From Haloferula helveola (GTDB taxonomy: Bacteria; Verrucomicrobiota; Verrucomicrobiia; Verrucomicrobiales; Akkermansiaceae): a stretch of DNA of 64,000 nt. Below are positions 5,463 through 26,226 of the stretch, one piece after another. Position 1 is the first letter of the stretch. Each line of letters begins with the position of its first letter. A program made the translations under genes and the position numbers. The notes under the pieces are model-generated. The model was not told the DNA's origin and searched no databases. It saw only the letters and a program-made list of their open reading frames with translations. The stretch is from contig NZ_AP024702.1 in the NCBI RefSeq assembly GCF_037076345.1, positions 310,001 to 374,000 of the forward strand, in the 5' to 3' direction.

Positions 5463-5718
5463 GAATCGATGGGTATCGCCCAGCTCTAAACTACCCAGAC
5501 GCCGAAGGAATCTTTTCCACGATCCGCGGCGTTTGACTTGGATAGAACCGGACATCCGCACCTACGAGACCTCGGCCCGTATGCGGTCAGCTTAAACGCG
5601 AATTTTGATCGCGGATTCGCGCCATCCGTGAGCCGGGGTCTGGAAGCCATCCCGAACCCCGGAATTTCCCGGCCGTTCCGGGCTTGCGGGGGCTCGCGGT
5701 TCCCCTCACTTGTAGGTT

Positions 5719-7791: not shown

Positions 7792-10700
7792 TCAGTTCTC
7801 GGCCGCGCTGAGACGTCCGAACAGGGTGCCGCTGCCCGACGCGAAGCTGTCGGGAATTTTCACCGTCACCGTGTCCGTCGGGCTGCCGTCAACAACGACC
7901 ACTTCCACCCCGCTTCCGAGCGTCTGGCTCGTCAGCGGAATCACGTCGCTGTTCGACAGCGAAAGGTCGCCTCCGTAGTCGACGCTCAGCACCACAGGCG
8001 CAATGCCGTCGAGACGCTCGAAGGTGAGGGTCAGGAAACCCGGCTCGGTGGCCACCGCCGGCAGCAATCCGAGCGCGTTGGCATTCACGTCCGACGCTCC
8101 GAGTGCGAAGGCCAAGCCGTTGTCGACCCCGTCGCCGTTGGCATCATCTTCGAACAACGCGCCTCCCGACCACGCCGCATACGGCGTCTGCCCGGTGCCC
8201 GTCAGGTTGATCACATACGGATTCTCGTCGCCGTCGTTGTTGGCGATCGACAGCGCCGCGCTCTTCGCTCCGGCCGTCGCTGGCGCGAACTGGATCGTGA
8301 ACGTCGTCGTGCCGCCTGCCGACGCCACCGGCGTGACCGGCACCGCCGTCACCGTGAAGTCCGCCGCGTCCGTTCCGGTCACATCCACCAGGGGTGCTCC
8401 CGTCAGGTCCAGTGCGGCCGAACCGCTGTTGCGGATCGTGAAGGTCAGCGGGGCGTTGCCTCCCAGCGTCACCGTGCCGAAGTCCTGTGAGCCGCCGCTG
8501 GCGATCTCGGTCAGCGCCGGTTGCTCGACGGCGATTTCAGGCGCGCCGCCTCCCACTCCGGTCACCGTCAGCACGCCGTCGCCGAGGATCCACGGCACTT
8601 CGAAGTCCACTCCGCCCAGACCCGTCCGGCCGTAGGTGCCCGCGGGCTGCGCCACCGTCGCCACCACCAGTTGCTGGATCGTGTCGGTGTTGTTGCCCAT
8701 CTCCAGTAGGATCCCGTTGTAGGTCCCGCTCGGCCATCCGCTGTTCGCGTTGCCCTGGCTGTCGAGCGTCAGCGTCGCGCTGTCGGCGAACACGTCGCTC
8801 GCCTCGAGCTTCAGGATCGCTCCCCGGTCGTCCGCGTTGCTGCGCGGGTTCACCGTCACGTCTCCGGCTCCCGCCGATCCCGCGGCCTCGAATTCCACCA
8901 GATATCGGTCTTCGGCATCGAACACCAAGCCGCCGCTGAAGCTGTTGGCCTGCGTGAAGCGCACGATCGCCCGGTTGTCCTTCAGGTGCACCATGCTCCC
9001 CGTGCCGGTGATCGGACCGGAGAAAAGCCGGGTCCGTCCGTGCGTCGCGTTGCTCTGCGAGCGGAACTCGTTGGTCCCCGTCAGGTCCAGCCCAGGGTAG
9101 GTCGTCGTATACTGCGTCTCGTCCTGGATCGTCGCGTCCTCCATTCCGATCGTCCCCGTGCCCAGCGCGTTCTCAGAGCCTGACACGTTGTTGATCCGCA
9201 GCGAAGAGCCCGATTCCATCGTCAGCCCGCCGGAATACGGGAAGGTCGATCCGTTCTGCACCTGCGCCGCGATCCCGGTGGCGATGGTCGCCGGATACGT
9301 GCCGAAGGGCGGAAATCCAGAGTCCCAGTTCGCTCCCGTGTTCCAGCTGTCCGAGCCGCCCGCGTCGGCCGTCATCGTGATATTCGGCGGAGAGCCCGCC
9401 AGCACCGTGAAGGTCGTGTCGTCGGCGAACGGACCGTTGAGCGTGTTGCCGAAAAGGTCGTCGAAGCTCGCGCTCGCCGCCGCTCCGAGCGTGAAGTCGC
9501 CCGTCCCGGTCACCGTCGCCACCACCTCGAACTCGTTGACGTCGGTCTGCGTCACGCTGTCGATCGTGAACGGCGCGCCGCCGCCCGTCGCGTTCTCGAA
9601 GTCCGCCACCGTCACCGCCGAGTTCACCACCTCGTCGAAGGTCAGCGTGTAGAGCACCGTGCCGCCCACATACAGGTTCGTCGTGATCCCGGAGATCGGA
9701 TCGGTGATCGCCGGCGGATTGACCACCACGTCCGCCGGAGCGCCCGTCACCGTCAGGACCGCGTCCCCCTCGATCCACGACACCTCGTTGTCCGGCGCGC
9801 CGGGAGATCCCACACGGCCGTACGTCCCGGCAGGATAGGCGAAGCCCTCCTTGTTGAGGAACTGCACCGTGTTGTCCGCGTCCATCCGCAGGCTCGCGTT
9901 GCTCGTCCCGTTCGGGCCTTCGCCGAAAATGTTCAGCGTCGCAGTGGCCGCGATCGCACCGCTCGCGTCGAACTCGAGCTTGTGCATCCGGCGGTCCGTC
10001 GAGTTGACCGGGCTCAGCGTCACGTCACCCACACCGAATGCCCCGGCCACCGAACCGGTCACCGTGCCCGCGTTGCCGCCCCGGCCGGCGATCGTGCTCA
10101 CCACCAGACCATCGAATGTGTTTGCCGCCCCGAAGCTGTGGTTGCCCGTCGAGGTGTTCGACTGAAGCGTGAACTGGTGGGCTCCGGTAATCGGGTTGGC
10201 GAAGGTGAAGTTCGCAGGAGTCTGGGTCGACTCGCCCGCGCTGAACGTCGCGTCGCCGAGCAGTTCTACCTCCGGGACCGTGACGTTGGTCTGGGTCCGG
10301 CCCTTTACCAGCGCACCGTCGCCCATCGTGATCGTCGTCTGGCCCGGGGTGCCCAGCGCGTTGTACGAGTTCGGCCGGTTGGTCGTCCAACCGATCTGGA
10401 GCGTCGAGTTCGACTCCATCGTCAGGTCGCCCGTATATGCTGGCGTGGCGTCGTCCCACGCCACCACGTAGGCTCCGGAGGGAATCAAAACATTGAACGA
10501 ACCGTTCGGCACCTGGGTGCCGTCCCAGTTGCCGGCCGTGTTCCAGGTGTTCTGGCCCCCCGTGCTGTTCGGGCCCGTGTAGGTCAGAACCGGCTCGAAC
10601 AAGGTGACGCTGCCAGCCGTCGTCGACGTCTTGCCGAGCGAATCGGTCACCCGCAGCTGGATCGTATTCTCGCCCTCGACCATTCCGTACACGCCGGTAA

Positions 10701-11481
10701 GGGTGGCGTAATCGATCGACGCCGGGGTCACACCCGTGATGTCGAAGACCGTGTCGTTGTCGACGTCCCAGTCGTAGGTCGTGATCGTCTGACCGTCGGA
10801 CGGTAGTGAATTGCTTCCATCCAGAGAAAGCGAACCACCCGGAATCTCGACCGCGTAGGGACCACCTGTGTCAGCGATGGGCTCGGCGAGCGTCACACTC
10901 AGTTGGACATCATCGAAGTTCACGTCACTTGTTCCCGCACCCAGCGCCTTGCTCAACAACCGGATCTCAAGCGCCTCTCCCACCAGTCCGCTGTGAAGAC
11001 CTGCGTTGTAGACATAGTTCACGGTCGAGGTCACGAAGCCGTCATCCACCGGTGCCTGGGTGTTGTCGTCTTCAGCAAGCAAAGTGCCGTTGGCCAGCAA
11101 CTGCACCGTGTAGCCATCAAAATCCGCATCCGCCGGATCTCCGACTTCAACCGTCAGAGTGTAGCTTGCGTCCGCTTGGAAAAGCCCCGTCGCACCGGCA
11201 AGCACCTGGGAGAGGCCGTCGCCGGCCGAGCCTTCGAAGACCGAAGCCACGTTGTCCCCTTCCGCGGCACCGGAAGAGAACTGGGTTGCGCTCGGATTGA
11301 ACACGGTCGCGCCGTTCGCGATATCGGTCCAACCCGGCACGGGGGAAGCGGAGTTGCTGTCGGCCAACACGGGATCTTCAAATCCGGCATTGGTGATCGG
11401 CACCGATGTCTGACTCCACACGGGAGCACTCAGACCGAGGGCGGCAAACGCCACCAGGGGGTAGGTAGGATTGGTTTTCAT
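7792..11481 (-). CDS. P1: giant secreted multidomain protein (lectin-like, PKD, two beta-helix modules, HYDIN-type domain)
   Basis: 1229 codons from the ATG at 11481 (MKTNPTYPLVAFAALG, signal peptide to about residue 24). Upstream in-frame starts lack a signal. Approximate domains: jelly-roll/lectin-like 25-195; PKD-like 197-290 (GGPYAVEIPGGSLSLDGS); beta-helix module A 295-580 (NTWNTAGNW to AVLTVTG); Ig-like linker 580-690; beta-helix module B 697-976 ([10 protein letters not shown] to GVLTVTG); choice-of-anchor-D/HYDIN-like 977-1097 (DFGTVTLGGNAPLTFTIRN); conserved C-terminal domain 1098-1229. Module A through the C-terminus is shared with P3, and modules A-B with P2, at near-identical DNA level. 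No PEP-CTERM motif and no outer-membrane beta-barrel is present. It is transcribed divergently from regulator R1, 150 bases away, and ends at a strong terminator. Likely a surface or extracellular adhesion or carbohydrate-binding protein. Confidence 0.85.
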   Translation of the reverse strand: MKTNPTYPLVAFAALGLSAPVWSQTSVPITNAGFEDPVLADSNSASPVPGWTDIANGATVFNPSATQFSSGAAEGDNVASVFEGSAGDGLSQVLAGATGLFQADASYTLTVEVGDPADADFDGYTVQLLANGTLLAEDDNTQAPVDDGFVTSTVNYVYNAGLHSGLVGEALEIRLLSKALGAGTSDVNFDDVQLSVTLAEPIADTGGPYAVEIPGGSLSLDGSNSLPSDGQTITTYDWDVDNDTVFDITGVTPASIDYATLTGVYGMVEGENTIQLRVTDSLGKTSTTAGSVTLFEPVLTYTGPNSTGGQNTWNTAGNWDGTQVPNGSFNVLIPSGAYVVAWDDATPAYTGDLTMESNSTLQIGWTTNRPNSYNALGTPGQTTITMGDGALVKGRTQTNVTVPEVELLGDATFSAGESTQTPANFTFANPITGAHQFTLQSNTSTGNHSFGAANTFDGLVVSTIAGRGGNAGTVTGSVAGAFGVGDVTLSPVNSTDRRMHKLEFDASGAIAATATLNIFGEGPNGTSNASLRMDADNTVQFLNKEGFAYPAGTYGRVGSPGAPDNEVSWIEGDAVLTVTGAPADVVVNPPAITDPISGITTNLYVGGTVLYTLTFDEVVNSAVTVADFENATGGGAPFTIDSVTQTDVNEFEVVATVTGTGDFTLGAAASASFDDLFGNTLNGPFADDTTFTVLAGSPPNITMTADAGGSDSWNTGANWDSGFPPFGTYPATIATGIAAQVQNGSTFPYSGGLTMESGSSLRINNVSGSENALGTGTIGMEDATIQDETQYTTTYPGLDLTGTNEFRSQSNATHGRTRLFSGPITGTGSMVHLKDNRAIVRFTQANSFSGGLVFDAEDRYLVEFEAAGSAGAGDVTVNPRSNADDRGAILKLEASDVFADSATLTLDSQGNANSGWPSGTYNGILLEMGNNTDTIQQLVVATVAQPAGTYGRTGLGGVDFEVPWILGDGVLTVTGVGGGAPEIAVEQPALTEIASGGSQDFGTVTLGGNAPLTFTIRNSGSAALDLTGAPLVDVTGTDAADFTVTAVPVTPVASAGGTTTFTIQFAPATAGAKSAALSIANNDGDENPYVINLTGTGQTPYAAWSGGALFEDDANGDGVDNGLAFALGASDVNANALGLLPAVATEPGFLTLTFERLDGIAPVVLSVDYGGDLSLSNSDVIPLTSQTLGSGVEVVVVDGSPTDTVTVKIPDSFASGSGTLFGRLSAAEN
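7962..8828. repeat. Direct repeat shared by P1 and P3 (partner 19428-20294)
   Basis: About 0.87 kb encoding the C-terminal domain, the choice-of-anchor-D domain and the end of module B. By eye I see no difference between this stretch and 19428-20294 (constant offset 11466). A handful of substitutions appear just outside it, towards the stop codon and past 8828. Confidence 0.85.
8550..10581. repeat. Direct repeat unit (modules A-linker-B), copy in P1
   Basis: About 2.03 kb, matched by 13140-15171 in P2 at a constant offset of 4590. From about 8585 to 10304 the two copies appear base-for-base identical; mismatches occur only near both ends (for example at 8575, 8584, 10305 and in the last 200 bases). 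Confidence 0.88.
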
Positions 11482-11631
11482 AACGTCTCGGGTTTTCGAA
11501 CGCGACTTGCCGGGGAACAGGCAAGAGCGCGGAGTAGCAAGGTCGATCCAATCCATTGGCACACCTTGAGACAATCTCCACAGAAGGGAAAATTCGCTAT
11601 CAACCATCCTAATTTCCAGTAGCTTTCAGAA
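11482..11631. promoter_or_regulatory. Divergent control region between P1 and regulator R1
   Basis: 150 bases separate the P1 and R1 start codons. The region holds an inverted repeat CTTGCC-8 bases-GGCAAG (11506-11525), just upstream of P1. It is AT-richer close to R1. A weak version of the element seen upstream of R2 and R3 (CATC, ATTT, CAG, TTT in that order) lies just before the R1 start. Operator function is inferred from the divergent layout. Confidence 0.4.
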
Positions 11632-12717
11632 ATGCGGAAAATTCATATCCTTACCGCCGCCGAACAGGCCGCAAACCATCTGCGCGATGAGATTCAAGAG
11701 GGCAGGATCGGGCCGGTCATGCCGGGCGTCATCACCCTGGAGCAAGAAACCGGAGTCAATCGCAACACGCTCGAAGCCGGCCTCCGGATTCTCGAGCGGG
11801 AAGGACTTATCGCCTCCCAAGGGACGGGAAGGCGGCGGAAGATTATCGACACCGAAAAGCGCGATGATGGAGGCCGTTCGATACGATTGGCCATGCTCGA
11901 GTTTGACGAGGCATCGAAGGGCGAAAGTTATGTGGTCGAGATGCGACACCGACTCGAAGAGGCGGGGCACCGTGTTCTCGTCACTCGTGAAACCCTCCAA
12001 CACCTCGCGATGAATGCATCGCGGGTTGCACAACTCGTGGCCCGCACCCAAGCCGACGCCTGGATTGTCGGCGCCGGGTCCAGAGATGTGATCAGCTGGT
12101 TCAGCCGCCGCCCCTTTCCCACCTTCTGCGTCTTCGGCAGGCGCCGCGGACTCCCCATCGCGGGAGCGGGGCCGGACAAGACCGGCGCGATGCGAAAGGC
12201 CGTCAGCCGTCTGGCTGGACTCGGCCACGTCCGGATCGTGCTTCTAACACGCACGGATAGGCGCTTGCCCGTACCCGGGGCCTCGGAAACCGCATTCCTT
12301 GAAAGCCTTGAAGAGATGGGAATCGCAGGTGGTGACTACAACCTCCCATCATGGGAGGACCACCCGGAAGACTTTCAGCGAGTGCTCAACTCCTTGTTCG
12401 CGGTCAGCCCGCCGACCGCAATCATCGTCGACACGGTCGAGCTCTACCTATCGACCCAGCAGTTTCTTCTCAAACAAGGCCTAGCGGTCCCCCGGGACGT
12501 TTCGCTGGTCTGCACCGACTCGTCACCCGTCTTTGATTGGTGCCAACCGAGAATCGCTCACATCCACTGGGATACCCGCCCCTTGGTTCGCCGCGTCGTG
12601 AGATGGGCCGCCAACGTCAGCAAACGCCGACGGGACCTGCGGCAATCCTTGATTCGCGCCACTCTGGTCGAAGGAGGAACCATCGCACCCGCCCCCGGTC
12701 GGGCAGGTGCGCGTTGA
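11632..12717 (+). CDS. R1: GntR-type regulator with periplasmic-binding-like sensor domain
   Basis: 361 codons. Residues about 5-72 form a winged-helix GntR domain (LTAAEQAANHLRDEIQEGR, TLEAGLRILEREGLIASQG, then the basic GRRRKI wing). Residues about 82-350 resemble the LacI/PBP-1 sensor fold: ADAWIVGAGS, VFGRRRGLPIAGAGPDK, GHVRIVLLTR, PTAIIVD, VPRDVSLVCTD, and a C-terminal RRVVRWAANVS segment. It is a clear paralogue of R2 and R3. It is divergent from P1 and convergent with P2 (21 bases between stops), so P1 is the likeliest target, possibly with autoregulation. The ligand is probably a sugar or glycan fragment judged by fold; none can be named. Confidence 0.88.
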   Translation: MRKIHILTAAEQAANHLRDEIQEGRIGPVMPGVITLEQETGVNRNTLEAGLRILEREGLIASQGTGRRRKIIDTEKRDDGGRSIRLAMLEFDEASKGESYVVEMRHRLEEAGHRVLVTRETLQHLAMNASRVAQLVARTQADAWIVGAGSRDVISWFSRRPFPTFCVFGRRRGLPIAGAGPDKTGAMRKAVSRLAGLGHVRIVLLTRTDRRLPVPGASETAFLESLEEMGIAGGDYNLPSWEDHPEDFQRVLNSLFAVSPPTAIIVDTVELYLSTQQFLLKQGLAVPRDVSLVCTDSSPVFDWCQPRIAHIHWDTRPLVRRVVRWAANVSKRRRDLRQSLIRATLVEGGTIAPAPGRAGAR

Positions 12718-12738
12718 ATCATTTGCCATTGAGTTGCC

Positions 12739-15700
12739 TCAGTTCTCGGCCGCGCTGAGACGTGCGAAGAGGGTGCCGCTGCCCGACTCGAAGCTGTCGG
12801 GGATCTTCACCGTCACCGTGTCCGTCGGGCTGCCGTCGACCACTTCGACAACCACCCCGCTGGGCAGGGTCTGCCTCGTCAGCGGAATCAGGTCGCTGTT
12901 CGAGAACGACAGGTCTCCGCTGTATTCGACACTCAACACCACAGGTGCGATGCCATCGAGACGCTCGAACGTGAGTGTCAGAAAACCCGGTTCGCTTCCG
13001 ATCACCGGAAGGAGACCAAGGGCATTCACATTCGGGTTCGCCGCACCAAGCACGAAGGCGAGGCCATTCTCAACGCCGTCGCCATTCGCGTCGTCGTCAA
13101 AAGCGGCACCGCCGGACCAACTGGCGTAGGGCGTGACGCCTCCCACTCCGGTCACCGTCAGCACACCGTCGCCAAGGATCCACGGCACTTCGAAGTCCAC
13201 TCCGCCCAGACCCGTCCGGCCGTAGGTGCCCGCGGGCTGCGCCACCGTCGCCACCACCAGTTGCTGGATCGTGTCGGTGTTGTTGCCCATCTCCAGTAGG
13301 ATCCCGTTGTAGGTCCCGCTCGGCCATCCGCTGTTCGCGTTGCCCTGGCTGTCGAGCGTCAGCGTCGCGCTGTCGGCGAACACGTCGCTCGCCTCGAGCT
13401 TCAGGATCGCTCCCCGGTCGTCCGCGTTGCTGCGCGGGTTCACCGTCACGTCTCCGGCTCCCGCCGATCCCGCGGCCTCGAATTCCACCAGATATCGGTC
13501 TTCGGCATCGAACACCAAGCCGCCGCTGAAGCTGTTGGCCTGCGTGAAGCGCACGATCGCCCGGTTGTCCTTCAGGTGCACCATGCTCCCCGTGCCGGTG
13601 ATCGGACCGGAGAAAAGCCGGGTCCGTCCGTGCGTCGCGTTGCTCTGCGAGCGGAACTCGTTGGTCCCCGTCAGGTCCAGCCCAGGGTAGGTCGTCGTAT
13701 ACTGCGTCTCGTCCTGGATCGTCGCGTCCTCCATTCCGATCGTCCCCGTGCCCAGCGCGTTCTCAGAGCCTGACACGTTGTTGATCCGCAGCGAAGAGCC
13801 CGATTCCATCGTCAGCCCGCCGGAATACGGGAAGGTCGATCCGTTCTGCACCTGCGCCGCGATCCCGGTGGCGATGGTCGCCGGATACGTGCCGAAGGGC
13901 GGAAATCCAGAGTCCCAGTTCGCTCCCGTGTTCCAGCTGTCCGAGCCGCCCGCGTCGGCCGTCATCGTGATATTCGGCGGAGAGCCCGCCAGCACCGTGA
14001 AGGTCGTGTCGTCGGCGAACGGACCGTTGAGCGTGTTGCCGAAAAGGTCGTCGAAGCTCGCGCTCGCCGCCGCTCCGAGCGTGAAGTCGCCCGTCCCGGT
14101 CACCGTCGCCACCACCTCGAACTCGTTGACGTCGGTCTGCGTCACGCTGTCGATCGTGAACGGCGCGCCGCCGCCCGTCGCGTTCTCGAAGTCCGCCACC
14201 GTCACCGCCGAGTTCACCACCTCGTCGAAGGTCAGCGTGTAGAGCACCGTGCCGCCCACATACAGGTTCGTCGTGATCCCGGAGATCGGATCGGTGATCG
14301 CCGGCGGATTGACCACCACGTCCGCCGGAGCGCCCGTCACCGTCAGGACCGCGTCCCCCTCGATCCACGACACCTCGTTGTCCGGCGCGCCGGGAGATCC
14401 CACACGGCCGTACGTCCCGGCAGGATAGGCGAAGCCCTCCTTGTTGAGGAACTGCACCGTGTTGTCCGCGTCCATCCGCAGGCTCGCGTTGCTCGTCCCG
14501 TTCGGGCCTTCGCCGAAAATGTTCAGCGTCGCAGTGGCCGCGATCGCACCGCTCGCGTCGAACTCGAGCTTGTGCATCCGGCGGTCCGTCGAGTTGACCG
14601 GGCTCAGCGTCACGTCACCCACACCGAATGCCCCGGCCACCGAACCGGTCACCGTGCCCGCGTTGCCGCCCCGGCCGGCGATCGTGCTCACCACCAGACC
14701 ATCGAATGTGTTTGCCGCCCCGAAGCTGTGGTTGCCCGTCGAGGTGTTCGACTGAAGCGTGAACTGGTGGGCTCCGGTAATCGGGTTGGCGAAGGTGAAG
14801 TTCGCAGGAGTCTGGGTCGACTCGCCCGCGCTGAACGTCGCGTCGCCGAGCAGTTCTACCTCCGGGACCGTGACGTTGGTCTGGGTCCGGCCCTTGACCA
14901 GCGCGCCTGCGCCCATCGTGATCGTCGTCTGGCCCGCAGTGCCCAGCGCGTTGTACGAGTTCGGCCGGTTCGTCGTCCAACCGATCTGGATGGTCGAGTT
15001 CGACTCCATCGTCAGGTCGCCCGTATACGCCGGTGTGGCGTCATCCCAAGCCACCACATAGGCTCCGGAGGGCACGATCGCACCCACCGTGCCGGCGGGC
15101 ACCGCAGCAATGTCCCAGTTGCCCGCCGTATTCCAGGTGTTCTGGCCACCCGTGCTGTTCGGGCCGACGTAGGTCGCCAACGCACCCGGAACCGAGGTCG
15201 TGAACGCCCAGGTCGCGCCTCCGCTGATTCCGCCGAACGGATTATCGACAAGGTCAAGAATCGAACCAGCGTCGATCTCGACGTAGTAGTCGACACCGCC
15301 CGTCAGGTCGGAACTCGGATTGATGGTCACACTGCTGCCGGCAAACCCAGCGTTTCCGATCGGAATCGTCTCGAACACGGAACCTCCAAGTTCGGTGATC
15401 GTCACGTTGCCGGTGCCAGCTTTAACATCTTCGTCAAAGGTAATCACGAGGCTTGCCGAAACCGAGACCGTGGACGCCCCATTGACCGGATCGAGGGAAA
15501 CAACAACCGGAGCGGTTGTGTCGGGAACATCCGTTGTCGCCGCCGCCGGAGCCGATGCACTACCGACATTCTGAGCCGGACTCTTGTCGCGCGCCTCGAC
15601 GGTGTAGGTATACTCGGTGCCCGGCGTCAGGCCGGTGTCCTCGAAACTCTCGCCGTCCTGCCATCCGCTGTTGGTGCCAGCCGTCAGGTTGTTGAACCGG

Positions 15701-18700
15701 TATTCCACCCCGCTCGGGTCCGACGCCACGACCGCCGTCATCGCAATCGAGGTTTCTCCCGTCGAGGTCGGTGGTGTAGCGAACTCCATCGGACTCGGTG
15801 TCGGCGCGGCAAGGTCGGGCGAATCGGTCGTCGCCGAAGCCGGCGGCGAAAAGCCGGTGGCGTTCTGACCCGCGCTCTTGTCCCTTGCCCGCACCTCGTA
15901 GGTGTATTCCGTTCCGGCGGTCAGGCCTGTCGGCGTGAAGGTCGGGCTGTCCTGCCAGCCGCTGCCCGGACCGCCACCCACCGTGCAAACAAACTCGTAT
16001 TCGACATCATTGATGTCGGTGGCAGCGCTGGCCGTCATGGTGATCGATGTTTCACCCAGCGCGGTGGGCAGCGACGCGAAACTCATCGGATCCGGAGTCG
16101 GCGGGGTGACATCGCTGCCGGCAACCGCACTCGACACCGCCGACCAATCGCCCTCGTTGCCCAGCGCATCCCGCATCTTGAACTGATAGTCGTAGGTGAC
16201 TCCGTCGGTCAGCCCGCTGTTGTCCCAGAAATTGTCTGTGACCCAACCGCTGTTGTCGCTGTTCGTCGTGTTCTCGAAGAAATACTCAACCGGACCGGAG
16301 GGATCGAAGGCCACGGTAGCGACCATCCCGATCGTTCCCGACACAACCGCCGTCGGAGCGATCTCAAAAGTCGGAGGATTCGGGGCCGGCGGCGAGACGT
16401 CGTCCTGAAGATCGATCATTGCTCGACCGACCGCGTCACCGACCAGCATGTAGGTTTCGGCATTCCAGTTGTAGTGGAACCCCTCGCCGCTCGGCGAGAT
16501 CGACACGTCCCGCCAGTACGGAGTGGTGTCGACCGAGGCGACCGTACCTGCGAACGCCGGATGCTGGACCGGGTCGCCCACCGCCATCTGTGCATTGAAG
16601 ATCGCATCGCCGCTGCTGCCGGGACTCCATCCGCCGCCATCAAACCCGACCGAAGCCACCACAAACGGAGCGCTCGGCACGGTATTCGCCGGATAACGGG
16701 TTTCGTAGTAGCTGCGGAGTTCGTTGATGAACTGGACGAGGTTGTCCTCGTAGCGCGTCGCATAGACTCCCGCCGTCCCCGACCCGGACTGACCTCCGTC
16801 CTTGTGGCCCTGCCACCATACGTAACCGGCGATCTCGAAGCCCTGAGAGGCATATTCGGGATACTCGACCGCGAAGTCGTCGAGAATGTCGACCACGTTG
16901 GTAACCGCACTGCCACCCGCCGGCGCGTGATCGGCCTCGTCGAGGAAGTAGTCGTCATACTGTTTCCCGGCATACCAGTTGATCGGCACCGGGGTGGAAC
17001 CGGTCGGCCACGACGACGGAGAATCCCCGTAACCTGCATAGGTTGTGCCGCCGACTTCATACTGGGGACTCCCCGGAGGAAGACAGTCCCAACCAAGACT
17101 ACGGTTGCCGATCGACGACTTGATGAGAAGGACGGGCTCGTCGAAGTACCAACCCATCACATGTCCGAAACCGAGCTCCGGACCGAAAGATCCGCCACCG
17201 GCACCGAACTTCGGCTCGAGGGGACCGTCGCCGATGGCCGAAATCACGCCACGGTATTTGACGTCGTTGCGCGTTGTGAACCCACCTCCCGCTGCCGCGA
17301 GATTCGGAAATTTGTTCTCACCCGTGATGGTGGCCAGCGTGCCGGGTGCCGTACCGAAGACCTGGGCGAAGCCAACCATGTTGGACTGGCCGGACATGAT
17401 GAAGACCTTCACCGGCTTGGTCGTGACGCCGGTAGATCCGTCAGGAGCAGGCAGCGGGTAGGGAATGTTCGGCTTATCTCCCGGCAGGAACGGATCGGTG
17501 AAGGACGCGGTGAGCTCATACCAGTCCCCCGCCCCGTCGGCATCGGTGTCCGCCAGAAGCGGATGGGTGCCGGTGTCGGTCGGACTCACGTAACTCCCGG
17601 TATTCGTTTCCACGCCATCCGACAGCGCGTCTTGGTCGGTATCGATGTCGAGCGGATCCGTGCCGGTACTCGAACTGCTGATCCACGTTCCGGTATTCGA
17701 CTCATCCCCATCGAGCAGACCGTCGCCGTCGGTATCGTCGTCCAGCGGATCGGTGCCCGTATCCGCAGCACTCACCCATACTCCGGTATTCGTTTCCTCA
17801 CCATCGAGAAGGCCGTCGTCGTCCGAATCCGGATCGGTCGGATCCGTGCCTGCCAGATACTCTTCAAGATTGGTCAAACCATCCCCGGCTCCGCCATTCT
17901 CCAGGTCGTCACCCGGATTGAGAGCCGTGGTTGATGGAGGACTCGTGTAAAGTTCCTCCCAGTCGTCCGGCAAGCCATCGGCATCGGTATCGTTGACCAC
18001 GAAGTCGTAAACCGCTCCCGTCTCGGGTGTACCGGTGTCGGTGCCGTCGAGATGGGAATCGACACGCCAGTAGTAGCTATCCGCCGCTGGAGCGCTGACG
18101 GTGAATGTTTCGAGGTTCAGCTGGTTCGAAGCCACTTGGGCGAGCGAACCCGGATCCGTACCGAACCAGACATCCACCCAGACGTCGGATCCTACCGATG
18201 GAGCCAGATTGGACCATGTCAGGTCGACATCCCCCAACGGCACCACCGCTCCGAAGGCAGGAGCGGGATTGTTCGGGCTGATGAAGAGGACGGTCAGCGT
18301 GCCCGGCCCCTCGATCCATGACTGGCTGCTCGTGTACGTTCCGGCCGGCTGCTCGACTCCATCGAGCGTGAGACCGCCGATGGTCACGTCCGTGCCCAGA
18401 TAGATCCGGTTGTTTCCATTCCCGCTCGGCCCGCCCCCATCCAGATGCAAGCGGCCGGTAATCGACATCGCATTGGCATCGTTGAAGCGGAGTTGGGGGC
18501 TCCGGTCGTCCGACGAATCCCCCACGAGAGTAACGTCCCCTGTTCCCAAGCATCCCGCAACATTCGCTTCGGCATCGGGCATTGCCTGACCGCGACCGAA
18601 AATGCCCGTGATGGTGAGAGCGGAGAAGCCGTTCGCCGCATTGAGTTCGATCCCGCCGCCCGCTGCGTTGGTCTCGATCGAGAAAGCATGCGGACCGCTG

Positions 18701-19179
18701 ACCGGGTAATTGAAAACACCCTGAGACGGCACCTGGGTCGATTCACCCAGTCTCACGGACGCATCGCCGGTCAACACCACTTCCGGAAGGACGAAGCTGC
18801 TTCCGGTACGGGAGCGGATGAGCGAGCCGGCGGCCATCGTGATCACAGTCGTGCCCGGCGTTCCCAAGGCGTTGAATGATGCCGGCCTCCCCGTCGTCCA
18901 ACCCATCTGCAGGGTCGCTCCGGTTCCGAGCGAAAGGTCTCCCGAATGAACCGGAGTGTCGTCACTCCAAGCCACGACACCACCACCTGCGGAAATCACC
19001 ACGTCAGTGGTCCCGGTCGGAATCGCGGAAGTGTCCCAGTTCGAAGGAGTGTTCCAAGTATCCGTCCCGCCGAGGCTGTTGCTACCAATGTAGGTGGCGG
19101 TCTGTGCATCGAGGGAGACTGAAAGTCCGAGCGTGACCATCATCGCGATGCTCGGACCGGCAATTCGGGATTTTCTCAT
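12739..19179 (-). CDS. P2: giant secreted protein with sialate-O-acetylesterase-type domain on the shared chassis
   Basis: 2146 codons with signal peptide [20 protein letters not shown]. Approximate domains: beta-helix module 27-300, a diverged relative of module A ([10 protein letters not shown]); Ig-like 300-395; thrombospondin-type-3 calcium-binding Asp repeats 400-565 ([10 protein letters not shown] type); SASA esterase domain 585-905 with nucleophile Ser599 in MSGQSNMVG, a WWQGHKD motif and a late His in FHYNWN; three fibronectin-III-like repeats 915-1210; Big_5 Ig-like 1215-1330; module A 1334 onward, linker, module B to 2013; C-terminal domain 2014-2146. It lacks the HYDIN-like domain of P1 and P3. 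The esterase head suggests de-acetylation of polysaccharide or sialylated glycan. P3 lies 75 bases upstream on the same strand, so the two may be co-transcribed. Confidence 0.87.
13140..15171. repeat. Direct repeat unit (modules A-linker-B), copy in P2
   Basis: Partner of 8550-10581, offset 4590, with about 1.7 kb that looks identical (13175-14894). The DNA on both sides (the end of the P2 C-terminal domain and its Big_5 domain) is much less similar to P1, so the borders are sharp. Confidence 0.88.
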
Positions 19180-19254
19180 GAATCGGTTGGGTAAGTTTTC
19201 GACACGCCCAAACCCGGACGTGAGGGGCGCATGAAATTCGGCAGCACCGGACCG

Positions 19255-22200
19255 TTAGGGAGCATCAGTCGCACTGAGGCGTCCGAACAGGGTGCCGTTT
19301 CCAGACGCGAAGCTGTCGGGGATCTTCACCGTCACCGTGTCCGTCGGGCTGCCGTCGACCACGACCACTTCCACCCCGCTTCCGAGCGTCTGGCTCGTCA
19401 GCGGAATCACGTCGCTGTTCGACAGCGCAAGGTCGCCTCCGTAGTCGACGCTCAGCACCACAGGCGCAATGCCGTCGAGACGCTCGAAGGTGAGGGTCAG
19501 GAAACCCGGCTCGGTGGCCACCGCCGGCAGCAATCCGAGCGCGTTGGCATTCACGTCCGACGCTCCGAGTGCGAAGGCCAAGCCGTTGTCGACCCCGTCG
19601 CCGTTGGCATCATCTTCGAACAACGCGCCTCCCGACCACGCCGCATACGGCGTCTGCCCGGTGCCCGTCAGGTTGATCACATACGGATTCTCGTCGCCGT
19701 CGTTGTTGGCGATCGACAGCGCCGCGCTCTTCGCTCCGGCCGTCGCTGGCGCGAACTGGATCGTGAACGTCGTCGTGCCGCCTGCCGACGCCACCGGCGT
19801 GACCGGCACCGCCGTCACCGTGAAGTCCGCCGCGTCCGTTCCGGTCACATCCACCAGGGGTGCTCCCGTCAGGTCCAGTGCGGCCGAACCGCTGTTGCGG
19901 ATCGTGAAGGTCAGCGGGGCGTTGCCTCCCAGCGTCACCGTGCCGAAGTCCTGTGAGCCGCCGCTGGCGATCTCGGTCAGCGCCGGTTGCTCGACGGCGA
20001 TTTCAGGCGCGCCGCCTCCCACTCCGGTCACCGTCAGCACGCCGTCGCCGAGGATCCACGGCACTTCGAAGTCCACTCCGCCCAGACCCGTCCGGCCGTA
20101 GGTGCCCGCGGGCTGCGCCACCGTCGCCACCACCAGTTGCTGGATCGTGTCGGTGTTGTTGCCCATCTCCAGTAGGATCCCGTTGTAGGTCCCGCTCGGC
20201 CATCCGCTGTTCGCGTTGCCCTGGCTGTCGAGCGTCAGCGTCGCGCTGTCGGCGAACACGTCGCTCGCCTCGAGCTTCAGGATCGCTCCCCGGTTGTCCG
20301 CATTGCTGCGCGGGTTCACCGTCACGTCTCCGGCTCCCGCCGATCCCGCGGCCTCGAATTCCACCAGATGGCGGTCCTCGGCGTTGAACACCAAGCCGCC
20401 CGTGAAGCTGTTGGACTGGGCGAAACGCAGGATCGCGCGGTTGTCCACAAGGAACGACAGCGAGCCGCCGCCGGTGATCGGACCCGAGAACAGCCGGGTA
20501 CGCCCGTGCGTCGTGTTGCTCTGCGAGCGGACCTCGTTGGCGCCCGTCAGGTCCAGCGCTGGGTAGGTCGTCGTGTAGCCCGTCTCGTCCTGGATCGTCG
20601 CGTCCTCCATTCCGATCGTCCCCGTGCCCAGCGCGTTCTCCGAACCCGACACGCTGTTGATCCGAAGCGAAGAGCCCGACTCCATCGTCAGCCCTCCGGA
20701 ATACGGGAAGGTCGATCCGTTCTGCACCTGCGCCGCGATCCCCGTGGCGATGGTCGCCGGATACGTGCCGAAGGGAGGAAATCCAGAGTCCCAGTTCGCT
20801 CCCGTGTTCCAGCTGTCAGAGCCGCCCGCGTTGGCCGTCATCGTGATGTTCGGCGGAGAGCCCGCCAGCACCGTGAAGGTCGTGTCGTCGGCGAACGGAC
20901 CGTTGAGCGTGTTGCCGAAAAGGTCGTCGAAGCTCGCGCTCGCCGCCGCCCCGAGCGTGAAGTCGCCCGTCCCGGTCACCGTCGCCACCACCTCGAACTC
21001 GTTGACGCCGGTCTGCGTCACGCTGTCGATGGTGAAAGTAGCGCCGCCGCCCGTCGCGTTCTCGAAGTCCGCCACCGTCACCGCCGAGTTCACCACCTCG
21101 TCGAAGGTCAGCGTGTAGAGCACCGTGCCGCCCACATACAGGTTCGTCGTGATCCCGGAGATCGGATCGGTGATCGCCGGCGGATTGACCACCACGTCCG
21201 CCGGGGCGCCCGTCACCGTCAGGACCGCGTCCCCCTCGATCCACGACACCTCGTTGTCCGGCGCGCCGGGCGATCCCACACGGCCGTACGTCCCGGCAGG
21301 ATAGGCGAAGCCCTCCTTGTTGAGGAACTGCACCGTGTTGTCCGCGTCCATCCGCAGGCTCGCGTTGCTCGTCCCGTTCGGGCCATTACCGAAGATATTG
21401 AGAGTTCCGGTCGCGGCCATCACACCGGTCACGTCGAACTCCAGCAGGTGGCAACGCCCTGCTGGCTCCGCCGGACTCAAGGTCACCACTCCAGAACCGA
21501 ATGCGCCGGCCACCGAACCCGTCACCGTGCCGGCATTGCCGCCCCGGCCCTGGATCGTGTCGACCACCAACTCGCTGAACGTGTTCGCCGCGTCGAAGCT
21601 GTGGTTGCCCGTCGAGGTGTTGCTGCGCAGCGTGAACCGGTGCGCGCCGGTGATCGGGTTGGCGAAGGTGAAGTTTGCAGGCGTCTGGGTCGACTCGCCC
21701 GCGCTGAACGTCGCGTCGCCCAGCAGTTCGATCTCTGGAACCGTGACGTCGGTCTGGGTCCGACCCTTGACCAGCGCACCGTCGCCCATCGTGATCGTCG
21801 TCTGGCCCGGAGTTCCCACCGCGTTGTACGAGTTCGGCCGGTTCGTCGTCCAACCGATCTGGATCGTCGAGTTCGACTCCATCGTCAGGTTACCCGTATA
21901 TGCCGGTGTCGCGTCGTCCCACGCCACCACATAGGCTCCGGACGGCACGACAGCGCGTACAAAGCCGGCGGGCACCACAGCGATGTCCCAGTTGCCGGCC
22001 GTGTTCCAGGTGTTCTGGCCACCCGTGCTGTTCGGGCCCGTGTAGGTCGCGGTCTGAACGAGGGCAACGGTCGTGGAAACCGCCGAGGTCTTCGCGGACG
22101 AGTCGGTCACCCTCAGCTGAATCGTATTGAGCCCCTCGAACATGCCGTAGGTGCCGGTAAGAGTGGCATAGTCGATCGCCGCCGGAGCCGCTCCCGTGAC

Positions 22201-25200
22201 GTCACCAAAGGTGCCGTCATTGTTGAGATCCCAATCGTAGGCGGTGATCGTTTGGCCGTTGGAAGGAATGGATGCGCCGCCATCGAGTGACAACGTCTCC
22301 CCCACGGATAGCTCGTAAGGTCCGCCAGCATCCGCGATCGGATCTGCCGTCGCGACAGAAAAACTCCACGTGGAGTCGTCCGCGATCCCGACGAACGGAT
22401 TACTCGAAGCATCCACGACCGAGCCCGCATCGATCCAAACCGCATAGGTCTTGCCGATGATCAGGTCCGCCGCCGGATCGATGGTCAGGGTGTCACCAAC
22501 AATCGAGACCGAGGGATCGCTGATATCCACCAGCACCTCGGTCGCGTCGGTCAGGTTCTTGATGGTGATCAAACCGGTCGATGCCACGACATCCTCATCG
22601 AACACCGCGACCAGATCGGTCGCCGGGTCGAATGTCGTGCTGCCATTGGCGGGACTGAAGGTAAGCACCTCAGGGGCGGTCGTGTCCGGAATATCGGCGG
22701 TATTGGCGGTCGCGGGATCGGACCACCCCGTCAGGTTGCCTACCCCGTCCCGAGCCTGGACCCGATAGCCGTATTCGGTGTCCGGCGACAGGCCAACGTC
22801 GGTGAAAGTCGGACTCGCCTGCCAACCGCTGTCGTTACCGCCGCCCAATGTGCACTCGAAGTAGTACTCCACCCCGTTCACATCGAGCGCGGTCGACGCG
22901 GTCATCGTGATCGAGCTCTCATCCACCGTTGACGGTGCCGAAGCGAAACTCATCGGATCCGGTGCGGGCGCGGTCACGTCACTTCCCGGGGTTCCCGTTT
23001 CAACCGTCGACCAGTCGGTCTCGTTGCCCAGTCCGTCGCGGGCCTTGACCCGGTAATCATACGGCGTGCCCGTGGTCAGGCCCGTGTTGTCCCAGTTCGG
23101 CGAGGTGCTCCAGTCGCGGAAGTTTCCGTTGGTCGTATTCTCGAAGTAGTACTCGATCGGTCCGACGTCCGCGGTCGCGGTGGTGGCGACCATTCCGACG
23201 GTCGCACCATCCACCGCACCTGGCGCGATCTTGAAGGTCATCGGGTTGGGCGTGATCGCGCTGGGGTAGTACAGATCGACCAGTTCCTGAACGCGGTCGC
23301 GCACCTCGTCGGCACAGGCCGGGATATATTCCTCGTTGATGGTCACGCCAACGCGCTGCTGGGTTCTTCCCCATGCCGTGTAGTAGTCGCTCTGGTCCCA
23401 TTGCCGCGCATGCTCGGTTTCCGTCCAGTAGGCGCTCGGGCTGGGGATCTTCCCCCACCAGTTGAAGGCCCATGTCTGGAAGGCCGCGTTGTCGGCGGGA
23501 ACCAGCGCCTTGTAATCGAGAAGAAGGTTTCGAATGGCAACCGATGGTTGGATGGCGGGATCCGCCGCGATCGCTGCGGCAAGCGCCTCGGGATTCGCGG
23601 GGTGAATGCCCCAGAAGTGGAAGAGCGGGCGAATGTCGTAGCCGACATGATGCGAGAGGCGCAGCATCTTGTCGTCGTCGGACGTGCCGTAGGGAATGCC
23701 ATTGGCATCATCCTCCATGAACGAGCGCCAGTAGTCATCGAGCCCTTCCCAACCGAAGAGGCGCGCGATGTCCATGAACTTGGCATGCCCCTTGAGTTGG
23801 TAGGACTTCTCACCGGAATTCATGGGCACTTCACGGGGAGAGAACGCGAAGCTGAGCATCCACGCCACGGCGGTGTTGTCCAAGGTGCGGTAGGTGTTGC
23901 CGAAGCCGAGCGATCCCCGATGGGAGGTATCGATGTCGTAGCCGAATGCCCGATTCAGCATCGCCGCCTGGAGCAGGTTCACATTCGATTCACTTTCGCC
24001 GCCGAATTTCGGAAACCCGTAGGCATGCCCCTGCTCGTGAAACTCAACATGTGAGGCTGTGGGGTTGGCACCGGGGCCACGAACGAGGTAGCTGCCCGCA
24101 TAACCGAGCGGACTGACTTCGGAGTTGGGGTTCGTGGTCACGTTGACCGCCGGATAGCCGGGCGCATGGACCGATGAGCGCAGGATGACGTCGGGCTGGC
24201 AGTACATCGTCTCCTTCCCCCGATCGCGCGGAAAGCCCATCAGATCGTTGATCGCATCCATCGCCGCATCCCAGTCGGCCATCAACTGCACGGCCTGCGT
24301 CCCCGTCATGTTGTAGATCCACTTCGTGGGCACCTGGATCATGAACTTGTCGGACTGGAAGTCGGCCCAAGGCGCGACGTGCGTACGTTCGACATCCCAC
24401 TCCGCAGGAGTGGTCGAGTGGAAGCTCTTCGCCGAGAAGTAAGGCGAGCGAACGCCGCCGGTGACGGTCACCGTCACCACCCCGGCGTCGGCTCCGATCG
24501 GCACCTCGACGTAGATGCCGCCACCGAAGGGATTGGCCACCTTGATGGTGGTGGCATCGATCGGATAGAGGCGCGACTCGCGTTCGAGGCGTTGCACCGG
24601 GGCCCGACCGGAGAGATCCCATGAATGGGCGCCGACACGCACCTTGTAGCCGGCGTTGACCAATTCCGGGGGCACGGTGACGGAGGCGATGGTGCCGGGA
24701 GCGAGATACGTGCCGGTAGGTTTGCGCGCGGGGTTGGTCCACGCTTGGGTGTTGCGGCCGAAGGTGATCGGGAAACTGCCGTCGATCTGAATGTTGTGGG
24801 TATTCGCCGGATTGGCGGGCGGCGCACAGGGACCGGGGAAGTCGGCGTGACTGCCGAAACTGTAGCCATCGAGCTCGGCCTCGTGGGCGGCAAGCACCGG
24901 CGCGGTGTAGATCACGTCCATGGCGTGCTGCATGACCGAGTAGACGACCCAATGGACGTTCTCGCTGCTGACCGACTTCTTGTCGGCCGGGTTCGTATTG
25001 TTGCGGCTGAAGTCCGTGACGAAGCTGCCGGAAACGAACAATGGCCCGAAAGTCGCGTCGTAGGTCGAGATGAGATCGAAGACCGCGCCGATGGTGGCGG
25101 TGCTTTCCCCACACCGCTGCCGCAGGTCGTCGATGATCGTCTTCTGGGCCGCGATCTCCGGTCCGGTCAGGGTGGCCGCACCGGTAACGTGGTCCTTGAT

Positions 25201-26226
25201 CGCGGCGATGGCGTCCAACAGCGGATCGCCGGGCAGCGTGGAGAAATTCAAGGTGACGTCGTCGGTGATCGCGTCGATCGGCGCTCCACCGTCACCCAGG
25301 ATCGTGCCTGCATCGATCTGGATCGCGTAGTCCTTGTCCCAATCCAACAGGCCGGAGGGATCGATGCGGACCACGTTCTGGTCGTAAGTGAGGCTCGGGT
25401 CGCTGGCAGGAATGGCAGTTTCAACCGGACTGCCGGGGGTGGTCAGGTCACGGATGCGAATGTTGCCGGAGCCCGGCGAAACATCCTGGCTGAAAGTGAG
25501 CACGATCTCCCGGCTGGCCAACGCGTCGGTGGCGTCGTCCGCAGGACTGGCGGAGACCAACTCGAAAACCGGTCCGAGCGGCGGCTCGATATCGAGGTGG
25601 AAGATTCGGTCGGCGCTGATGGCGATGCCCACGCTGGTGTCACCCGTTCCCGAAACGCCGGACGTGTACCTCGATCCACCGGAGAAGTCGTCACCCGTCA
25701 CCTTCAGATACGGGATGCCGGTCTGCCATGCCGAGGTGCTGGTCAGCATTCCCACATCGATCCCGTAGGTCGTGAAGGGTTCCAGAAGGACCGGCGTGTC
25801 GAAGGTCCACGTCATGAACTCGTCCGAGTTCCAAGTGAAGCTTTGCGTCGCCGTCTCTGAATGGACCACATCGAACGTGGTGCCGGCCACCTTCCCGACC
25901 CGGATGGCATAGGTTTTGGTCGGCTCCGCTTTCTGGGTGTCGCTGACCTGATAGGAAATCGATTTCAGACGCAGGGCCGCACCGCCGGTGGTGAAGGTCT
26001 GGCCCTTGGCCGCGCTGTCGGCACTGGTGCCGGTGAACCACTTGTCCGTCCCCGAGACGGCACCGTAGTTGGCGATATCCTCGTCATCGACGACCGGTGC
26101 GGTGGAACTGGCCGACATGGTCGCGCCGGGGCTAACGGTCGGGACAAAGCCGAGAATCGGCAGCGCGATCACAGCGGCAACGCTTCCGAGGAACCCGCGT
26201 GAGGCTCCGGATGGAGTGGTGGTCAT
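19255..26226 (-). CDS. P3: giant secreted protein with M60-like metallopeptidase head on the shared chassis
   Basis: 2323 codons; signal-like N-terminus with FLGSVAAVIALPILGFV. Approximate domains: choice-of-anchor/jelly-roll 45-210 (GQTFTTGG, WTFDTPVLLEPFTTYGIDVG); Big_5 Ig-like 213-330; M60/enhancin-like peptidase about 480-950, with zinc motif HEQGHAYGF (HExxH at 730-734) and the accessory beta-domain before it (GYKVRVGAHSWD); fibronectin-III-like repeats about 1000-1170; Big_5 1175-1280; PKD 1285-1385; module A from about 1392, linker, module B to 2070; HYDIN-like 2070-2190; C-terminal domain to 2323. M60 peptidases cut O-glycosylated proteins such as mucins, so an extracellular glycoproteinase is likely. 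PKD-through-C-terminus mirrors P1. Confidence 0.87.
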   Translation of the reverse strand: MTTTPSGASRGFLGSVAAVIALPILGFVPTVSPGATMSASSTAPVVDDEDIANYGAVSGTDKWFTGTSADSAAKGQTFTTGGAALRLKSISYQVSDTQKAEPTKTYAIRVGKVAGTTFDVVHSETATQSFTWNSDEFMTWTFDTPVLLEPFTTYGIDVGMLTSTSAWQTGIPYLKVTGDDFSGGSRYTSGVSGTGDTSVGIAISADRIFHLDIEPPLGPVFELVSASPADDATDALASREIVLTFSQDVSPGSGNIRIRDLTTPGSPVETAIPASDPSLTYDQNVVRIDPSGLLDWDKDYAIQIDAGTILGDGGAPIDAITDDVTLNFSTLPGDPLLDAIAAIKDHVTGAATLTGPEIAAQKTIIDDLRQRCGESTATIGAVFDLISTYDATFGPLFVSGSFVTDFSRNNTNPADKKSVSSENVHWVVYSVMQHAMDVIYTAPVLAAHEAELDGYSFGSHADFPGPCAPPANPANTHNIQIDGSFPITFGRNTQAWTNPARKPTGTYLAPGTIASVTVPPELVNAGYKVRVGAHSWDLSGRAPVQRLERESRLYPIDATTIKVANPFGGGIYVEVPIGADAGVVTVTVTGGVRSPYFSAKSFHSTTPAEWDVERTHVAPWADFQSDKFMIQVPTKWIYNMTGTQAVQLMADWDAAMDAINDLMGFPRDRGKETMYCQPDVILRSSVHAPGYPAVNVTTNPNSEVSPLGYAGSYLVRGPGANPTASHVEFHEQGHAYGFPKFGGESESNVNLLQAAMLNRAFGYDIDTSHRGSLGFGNTYRTLDNTAVAWMLSFAFSPREVPMNSGEKSYQLKGHAKFMDIARLFGWEGLDDYWRSFMEDDANGIPYGTSDDDKMLRLSHHVGYDIRPLFHFWGIHPANPEALAAAIAADPAIQPSVAIRNLLLDYKALVPADNAAFQTWAFNWWGKIPSPSAYWTETEHARQWDQSDYYTAWGRTQQRVGVTINEEYIPACADEVRDRVQELVDLYYPSAITPNPMTFKIAPGAVDGATVGMVATTATADVGPIEYYFENTTNGNFRDWSTSPNWDNTGLTTGTPYDYRVKARDGLGNETDWSTVETGTPGSDVTAPAPDPMSFASAPSTVDESSITMTASTALDVNGVEYYFECTLGGGNDSGWQASPTFTDVGLSPDTEYGYRVQARDGVGNLTGWSDPATANTADIPDTTAPEVLTFSPANGSTTFDPATDLVAVFDEDVVASTGLITIKNLTDATEVLVDISDPSVSIVGDTLTIDPAADLIIGKTYAVWIDAGSVVDASSNPFVGIADDSTWSFSVATADPIADAGGPYELSVGETLSLDGGASIPSNGQTITAYDWDLNNDGTFGDVTGAAPAAIDYATLTGTYGMFEGLNTIQLRVTDSSAKTSAVSTTVALVQTATYTGPNSTGGQNTWNTAGNWDIAVVPAGFVRAVVPSGAYVVAWDDATPAYTGNLTMESNSTIQIGWTTNRPNSYNAVGTPGQTTITMGDGALVKGRTQTDVTVPEIELLGDATFSAGESTQTPANFTFANPITGAHRFTLRSNTSTGNHSFDAANTFSELVVDTIQGRGGNAGTVTGSVAGAFGSGVVTLSPAEPAGRCHLLEFDVTGVMAATGTLNIFGNGPNGTSNASLRMDADNTVQFLNKEGFAYPAGTYGRVGSPGAPDNEVSWIEGDAVLTVTGAPADVVVNPPAITDPISGITTNLYVGGTVLYTLTFDEVVNSAVTVADFENATGGGATFTIDSVTQTGVNEFEVVATVTGTGDFTLGAAASASFDDLFGNTLNGPFADDTTFTVLAGSPPNITMTANAGGSDSWNTGANWDSGFPPFGTYPATIATGIAAQVQNGSTFPYSGGLTMESGSSLRINSVSGSENALGTGTIGMEDATIQDETGYTTTYPALDLTGANEVRSQSNTTHGRTRLFSGPITGGGSLSFLVDNRAILRFAQSNSFTGGLVFNAEDRHLVEFEAAGSAGAGDVTVNPRSNADNRGAILKLEASDVFADSATLTLDSQGNANSGWPSGTYNGILLEMGNNTDTIQQLVVATVAQPAGTYGRTGLGGVDFEVPWILGDGVLTVTGVGGGAPEIAVEQPALTEIASGGSQDFGTVTLGGNAPLTFTIRNSGSAALDLTGAPLVDVTGTDAADFTVTAVPVTPVASAGGTTTFTIQFAPATAGAKSAALSIANNDGDENPYVINLTGTGQTPYAAWSGGALFEDDANGDGVDNGLAFALGASDVNANALGLLPAVATEPGFLTLTFERLDGIAPVVLSVDYGGDLALSNSDVIPLTSQTLGSGVEVVVVDGSPTDTVTVKIPDSFASGNGTLFGRLSATDAP
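19428..20294. repeat. Direct repeat shared by P3 and P1 (partner 7962-8828)
   Basis: Copy in P3 of the HYDIN-like and C-terminal coding stretch; it appears identical to 7962-8828. Immediately beyond it (20296-20560) P3 diverges from both P1 and P2. Confidence 0.85.
20016..22044. repeat. Third, mosaic copy of modules A-linker-B, in P3
   Basis: It aligns with 8550-10581 (net three-base length change), but similarity alternates. It is almost identical at 20016-20290, clearly diverged at 20370-20560, almost identical again at about 20580-21390, diverged at 21390-21640, then close again. This patchwork is what partial gene conversion between tandem paralogues leaves. Confidence 0.8.

Follow-up and report, generated by a model that had tools for sequence, protein, structure and literature searches.

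A recurrent C-terminal domain and gene conversion between the stalks in three neighbouring genes for putatively secreted proteins of Haloferula helveola

Results

Gene layout and domain composition

The window analysed here, a stretch of 64,000 nucleotides from Haloferula helveola, contains three neighbouring genes on the minus strand, P1, P2 and P3, whose products comprise 1271, 2146 and 2323 amino acids according to the open reading frame list (Table 1). The true start of P1 is likely at about position 11481 (MKTNPTY...), judged from the signal peptide. By hydropathy and reading only, a signal peptide is plausible at the N-terminus of all three proteins, and no C-terminal membrane helix was seen. 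Two plus-strand frames, 14572-17934 (1120 aa) and 20368-22290 (640 aa), run antisense over the P2 and P3 genes and are probably a by-product of high-GC codon use, not genes.

A sequence-only reading of this DNA had proposed that all three proteins end in the order module A, Ig-like linker, module B and C-terminal domain (CTD) and that they differ in their N-terminal heads. This order was seen in P1, P2 and P3 at the positions proposed. The HYDIN-like domain that had been assigned to P1 and P3 was recovered with the choice_anch_D model NF012200 (73.5 bits in P1 and 72.4 bits in P3, cut-off 45) and is missing from P2; with the HYDIN-like model PF22544 the score in P3 was slightly under the cut-off.

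The head of P1 had been described as lectin-like plus PKD. The PKD domain was found; "lectin-like" is a loose term for a domain that matches the HpiC1-like family PF22825 (125.5 bits, cut-off 27, E 3e-36) and whose relatives in the PDB are mostly hapalindole-type cyclases (best E 3.5e-14). Of the TSP3 and acetylesterase domains proposed for P2, the second is retained as a SASA-type esterase (PF03629), which has the GQSN motif though it scores 21.6 bits against a Pfam cut-off of 24.8, and which is 55% identical to a paralogue (L043 3626-6685) that scores 45 bits. The TSP3-like stretch was recognized by eye only, and Pfam gave no TSP3 match in P2 at E ≤ 0.1. Residues 29-297 of P2 form an additional, diverged copy of module A (45% identity). 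In P3 the M60-like peptidase head was borne out: Peptidase_M60 (PF13402) scores 37 bits (cut-off 25.8), is preceded by M60-like_N and satisfies the motif HEXXHX(8,24)E (HEQGH...E) with HEQGHAYGFPKFGGESE at residue 730.

The window also encodes P4, with autotransporter-type repeats (PATR), and P5. The tail of P5 is not among the 40 CTD profile matches and resembles the CTD by eye. A stand-alone SASA-type esterase gene (33472-35043, 523 aa, 49.5 bits) is situated beside a 3-keto-disaccharide hydrolase-like gene (32267-33421), a pair pointing to glycan use in the region.

Table 1. Positions of the genes, domains and identical tracts in the window
Feature	Position	Strand	Description
P1 gene	7792..11607	-	Signal peptide, HpiC1-like head, PKD, module A, linker, module B, choice_anch_D, CTD
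P1 head	10603..11406	-	HpiC1-like (PF22825) and PKD
P1 A-linker-B	8500..10584	-	Module A 9739-10584, Ig-like linker 9373-9738, module B 8500-9372
P1 choice_anch_D	8188..8499	-	choice_anch_D / HYDIN-like domain
P1 CTD	7795..8187	-	131 aa
P2 gene	12739..19179	-	Diverged module A copy, TSP3-like, SASA esterase, fn3-like, Big_5, A-linker-B, CTD
P2 diverged A copy	18289-19095	-
P2 SASA	16390-17439	-
P2 A-linker-B	13126-15174	-
P2 CTD	12742..13134	-
P3 gene	19255..26226	-	Big_5, M60 peptidase, fn3, Big_5, PKD, A-linker-B, choice_anch_D, CTD
P3 M60 peptidase	23347-25221	-
P3 A-linker-B	19966-22047	-
P3 CTD	19258..19653	-
Conversion tract 1	8585..10305 (P1)	-	1,721 bp, identical to P2 13175-14895
Conversion tract 2	7963..8828 (P1)	-	866 bp, identical to P3 19429-20294
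P4 gene	26474..30943	-	PATR (autotransporter-type repeat) protein; diverged CTD 26477-26872
P5 gene	54150..58496	-	HpiC1-like, TSP3, SASA, Big_5; CTD-like variant tail (by eye)
Regulator between P1 and P2	11632..12717	+	GntR-HTH and LacI-type ligand-binding regulator, divergent from P1
Regulator beside P4	31049..32116	+	Paralogous GntR/LacI-type regulator, divergent from P4
Regulator beside P5	59500..60573	+	Third paralogous regulator of the window, adjoins the P5 array

Modules A and B and gene conversion between the stalks

Modules A and B had been read as two beta-helices. They are homologous to each other (39-41% identity) and on this comparison are copies of one unit, about 40% identical. 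A beta-helix fold of module A is consistent with its predicted model, which has many short strands and 10-residue blocks of pLDDT 78-97; no beta-helix was among the listed Foldseek matches to this model. Six relatives of module A (P0009, P0011, P0012, P0013, P0014 and P0016) have a C-terminus without the CTD and finish, by eye, in a short GTLIxxK- or GTVMMIR-like tail, which may be another C-terminal signal.

The likeness of the rear halves of P1-P3 is beyond chance. DNA identity is 97.7% over 2,046 bp between P1 and P2 and 91.5% over 3,006 bp between P1 and P3. The longest identical run of P1 and P2 comprises 1,721 bases, with 132 mismatches in 2,433 aligned positions, and the maximum in 2,000 permutations was 210. 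For P1 and P3 the longest run is 866 (197 mismatches in 2,787, permuted maximum 194), and for P2 and P3 it is 244 (271 mismatches in 2,430, permuted maximum 125). At the DNA level the CTD of P2 is just 79-80% identical to the CTDs of P1 and P3. The long identical runs with P2 and with P3 show that P1 is a mosaic of P2-like and P3-like tracts. The direction was read from P0002, a P2-type sequence of another organism whose Big_5 domain is 82% identical to that of P2 and which carries choice_anch_D. At the chassis sites P0002 has the residue common to P1 and P2 at 36 positions and that of P3 at 10, and it differs from both at 6. This distribution indicates P2 as the donor of the core of P1.

Recombination in the chassis had been claimed from the sequence, and the 1,721- and 866-base runs demonstrate it. 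On the evidence of these alignments the three stalks are nearly identical because tandem genes overwrite each other by gene conversion; the near-identity of the chassis is thus recent homogenisation and not long conservation.

A-linker-B in other genomes

Relatives were searched twice, and the best 7,998 and 7,995 candidates by word sharing were scored. Module A was found in 8 of 97 genomes, the own genome included, and in one of the 17 others of the genus. Among the matches listed, module A, linker and module B stand in a row in eight distinct proteins, namely P1, P2, P3, P0002, P0004, P0005, P0071 and P0072; P0001 and P0003, being copies of P2 and P3, were not counted. The modules of the five additional proteins are 39-92% identical to those of P1. 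Examination of the N-terminal parts, as the sequence-only reading had proposed, revealed that the heads vary. The HpiC1-PKD head of P1 is also present in P0005. SASA occurs in P2, and M60 in P3 and also in P0004, whose N-terminus is incomplete. In P0071 and P0072, from two other organisms, SASA and M60 heads are fused on one A-linker-B. The record of P0002 is cut and the head is not covered. At its C-terminus P0071 has, by eye, a CTD-like variant (DQDGIVNGMEYALG ... FARLKV), which gave no match to the P1 CTD query at the cut-off used.

P0072 is encoded in genome G017 (NCBI organism name Haloferula sp. A504) by a gene for 3,462 aa (L095 2453-12841), which combines SASA, M60, A-linker-B and CTD on one chain; a sulfatase-like gene was noted by eye on its far side. 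The gene adjoins homologues, 70-71% identical, of both TPR genes of the window (1339-5561), so that a single fused gene is found close to the place of the three genes P1-P3 in the window. The fused gene and the TPR pair are divergent; in the window P1-P3 have the direction of the TPR genes, with a ThuA gene between. Owing to this difference in orientation and the intervening ThuA gene, the two places correspond in part only. The fusions in two other organisms, in one of them beside the same TPR pair, suggest that a fused protein was split here with duplication of the stalk, or the reverse.

Other joints also vary. P0066 has an M60 head 69% identical to that of P3, keeps the fore-part through PKD and ends in the CTD; it gave no A-linker-B match and has PATR in that place. 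P0013 and P0019 are headless, with rows of B-type modules straight after the signal peptide; P0019 terminates in the CTD and P0013 is without it. HpiC1-like heads directly before an A- or B-type module are followed by other tails in P0017, P0020, P0023, P0031, P0032, P0064, P0070 and others. Since the block HpiC1-(PKD-)A is met repeatedly with different tails behind it, joints besides that between head and chassis recombine too. Judged from these architectures, module swapping is real and takes place at several joints, and the heads are not freely interchangeable.

The proposed display platform can thus be kept in part. Varied heads do occur on A-linker-B (P0005, P0071, P0072), but module A is present in few genomes and headless proteins exist. 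As far as the genomes compared indicate, A-linker-B is rare and no general platform, and the widespread constant part, in correction of the earlier proposal, is the CTD. P1-P3 may be displayed at the surface; signal peptides are visible in them.

The C-terminal domain

In its own genome the CTD was found 28 times with a single sequence and 40 times with a profile. With the own genome counted, 60 of 97 genomes contain it, as do all 17 others of the genus. In the phylum sample at least 49 of 288 genomes, own included, contain it; these counts are lower bounds, as at most 14 candidates were scored per genome. Of one genus of the family with small genomes (2.2-3.5 Mb), 20 of the 22 genomes listed in this sample were without the CTD and two had one weak match.

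The CTD is C-terminal in all 24 own-genome proteins read. In 17 of the 20 named loci the match ends within 5 aa of the stop; the other three matches are partial and lie 58-85 aa away. A Pfam scan of the heads covered 29 of the 40 CTD ORFs (P1-P4 and 25 others) and 8 of the 20 named loci. The own genome has PATR, SASA, M60, M66, reprolysin-like, DUF6288, PASTA, laminin-G and Big_5 heads, and GH16 was found in addition in other genomes. Among the 29 scanned ORFs two were without a family at E ≤ 0.01 and several had PATR only.

In the alignment the invariant positions include D15, L42, P43, F56, F123 and R125, and D19 is nearly invariant. The AlphaFold2 model (pLDDT 93.5) consists of two short helices round a D-x-N-G-D-G loop followed by seven strands in a beta-sandwich, with weak fold matches to Ig, fn3 and CBM-like domains (CBM21, CBM9). 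No Pfam or NCBIfam model matches the CTD of P1-P4 at E ≤ 0.1. Judged from its sequence context, the CTD is most likely a signal that sorts or anchors proteins on export to the surface or the medium. As no transmembrane anchor, known sortase motif or partner was found, this role rests on position and recurrence, and the CTD could equally be a binding domain.

Regulator genes

Three paralogous GntR/LacI-type regulator genes lie in the window (Table 1); the GntR-HTH of the one between P1 and P2 scores 26.2 bits, slightly below the Pfam cut-off. With the regulator beside P4 as query, 13 copies with 42-100% identity were found in the genome (12 besides the query, 10 of the 13 outside the window). 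Eight of these 13 close paralogues are at most 1 kb from a CTD ORF, seven of them divergent, compared to a random mean of 0.61 and a maximum of 5 in 5,000 draws. When seven weaker relatives were added, 10 of 20 regulators were near a CTD ORF (random mean 0.94, maximum 6); the 20 rows result from 21, as two pieces of one frame at 2218538-2219593 were merged. Counted from the CTD side, a regulator of the close-paralogue group lies within 1 kb of 9 of the 40 CTD ORFs, and most have none. In other genomes the regulator is present in 3 of the 20 named CTD loci, divergent in 2, and 17 kb around the fused G017 gene contained no such regulator.

The remaining five regulators adjoin other large secreted or PEP-CTERM-like genes, as judged partly by eye; the random draws covered CTD ORFs. 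One adjoins the P5 array, one a laminin-G/Big_5 protein and one a SASA/invasin-Ig protein; the fourth has next to it an array that comprises a PEP-CTERM-like gene, a BNR_4 protein and a CTD gene, and beside the fifth is a secreted ORF whose neighbour is PEP-CTERM-like. From this adjacency, P1/P2, P4 and P5 are probably expressed under control of the neighbouring regulator.

Discussion

Comparison with known systems

The earlier statement that no named system of this design is known in Verrucomicrobiota holds for the CTD in so far as it has no Pfam or NCBIfam model; PEP-CTERM proteins and the CTDs of type IX secretion are nevertheless designs of the same kind. The PEP-CTERM/exosortase proteins, first met in Verrucomicrobium spinosum (PMC1569441), are similar to the proteins described here in several respects. 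A single C-terminal homology domain occurs on many unrelated secreted proteins per genome, the proteins have signal peptides, similarity is higher within than between species, and the bacteria have an outer membrane. The PEP-CTERM tail is 24 residues long and consists of the PEP motif, a transmembrane helix and a basic tail (PMC1569441), whereas the CTD, a folded domain of about 131 aa, has none of these. By eye, the aligned CTD tails showed no PEP motif and no basic run; P1, for example, ends in ...LFGRLSAAEN. In the last 60 aa the best 18-residue Kyte-Doolittle window was at most 1.70 in 28 of 28 proteins, that is, no membrane helix was detected. The genome has two exosortase matches and, by eye, PEP-CTERM-like proteins, and both kinds of C-terminal tail therefore coexist in it. 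Such tails (VPE/PEP, hydrophobic helix, basic end) were noted by eye at 58529-59335 of the window and at L140 7981-8832 and L141 9920-10915.

The type IX secretion CTDs of Bacteroidota are folded, Ig-like C-terminal sorting domains on varied enzymes. The CTD likewise is an Ig-like C-terminal domain on varied enzymes. T9SS sorting-domain models are held in NCBIfam, and the CTD of P1-P4 differs in having no NCBIfam or Pfam match. A search for SprA_N (PF14349) gave no match in the genome, and the control itself matched in none of 14 genomes. The name choice_anch_D points to proteins whose anchors vary. In P1 and P3 the domain (NF012200) stands right before the C-terminal tail, but here it is optional, as P2 shows, and the CTD comes after it.

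PATR (PF12951, TIGR02601) links these proteins to autotransporter-type proteins: P4 has the repeats, PF12951 was found in 30 of 37 CTD proteins among the matches listed, and modules A and B resemble such proteins in composition and ending by eye. There is no PATR match in P1-P3 at E ≤ 0.1, and neither Pfam nor NCBIfam revealed an autotransporter C-terminal barrel in P1-P4, the CTD model being a 131-aa sandwich; part of NF051851 is matched in P4 with 22 bits, against a cut-off of 1700.

M60-like peptidases are described as gluzincins that act outside the cell in microbes, host-associated ones among them (PMC3267712). P3 has in common with M60 peptidases such as those of Akkermansia muciniphila the HEXXHX(8,24)E gluzincin motif, the M60 N-domain and apparent secretion. 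In the proteins described here, by contrast, M60 stands on a CTD-bearing stalk or is fused to an esterase. The Akkermansiaceae are described as glycan users across gut and water (PMC13174399).

Alternative explanations

The long exact identity within a single assembly could in principle stem from collapsed or copied repeats, and P0003 (on a contig of 276,740 bases) indeed breaks off inside the P3 chassis, as short-read assemblers do at repeats. We regard such an artefact as very improbable here: the genome, 98% complete, consists of a single 5.68-Mb contig, the genes differ outside the tracts, the heads of P1, P2 and P3 are distinct, and P2 and P3 keep patches of intermediate divergence. If the conversion is accepted, the question arises whether the shared rear half is a platform at all. 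It could be a by-product of tandem duplication and gene conversion, a functionally neutral filler or a spacer to which the heads are merely adjacent. Conversion alone explains the near-identity, A-linker-B is rare beyond this locus, the related M60 head of P0066 stands on a different stalk, and P0013 and P0019 manage without heads. Retention of A-linker-B in P0002, P0004, P0005, P0071 and P0072, with several heads, and of the CTD on dozens of unrelated heads makes this explanation rather unlikely.

The CTD itself could be a ligand-binding module for calcium or carbohydrate, as is usual in secreted proteins, and not a sorting or anchoring signal. D15 and D19 in the D-x-N-G-D-G loop look calcium-binding, and the best fold matches, all weak, are the Ig/fn3, CBM21 and CBM9 sandwiches. 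However, in the loci checked the CTD is solely C-terminal, as a sorting domain would be, and its heads include ones with and without carbohydrate roles; we give this possibility a minor share of our confidence and prefer the sorting or anchoring role.

Proposed function and meaning

From the observed architecture, the conversion tracts, the recurrence and terminal position of the CTD, the changes of head and the adjacency of regulators, we consider it rather more probable than its alternatives combined that P1-P3 are secreted, partly substrate-regulated proteins acting on glycans or glycoproteins, with a common sorting or anchoring domain and stalks homogenised by conversion. These large proteins of a Haloferula-like verrucomicrobium would be built from a Sec signal peptide, a variable head (HpiC1-like/PKD, SASA-type acetylesterase or M60 gluzincin), the repeated beta-rich stalk A-linker-B and the CTD, a predicted C-terminal Ig-like sandwich with an EF-hand-like D-x-N-G-D-G loop common to dozens of proteins of the genome. 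Substrate would induce expression through the adjacent GntR/LacI-type regulator, and export by Sec would be followed by CTD-mediated attachment to the surface or release. The extracellular targets may be acetylated glycans and O-glycoproteins, on which SASA and M60 would act together, as their fusion suggests. Within the tandem the genes overwrite each other by conversion, P1 holding a P2-like and a P3-like tract, and the set may have arisen by the split of the SASA-M60 protein or have given rise to it.

As a wider and clearly more tentative proposal, Akkermansiaceae of the Haloferula kind may possess, beside PEP-CTERM, an unnamed sorting route based on the calcium-loop Ig-like CTD, in part arranged as cassettes of sensor and tool whose stalks are exchanged by conversion. 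If this is true, the CTD exports or anchors dozens of "tool" proteins, and for part of them a GntR/LacI-type sensor sits beside the gene or array. In public records many such proteins are named just "hypothetical" or "beta strand repeat". Naming the CTD, with about 40 copies in a single genome, would allow the secreted tool-kit of the lineage to be predicted from sequence; the secretion machinery would become findable by phylogenetic profiling, as for PEP-CTERM, and sensors could be matched to substrates where a regulator adjoins the gene.
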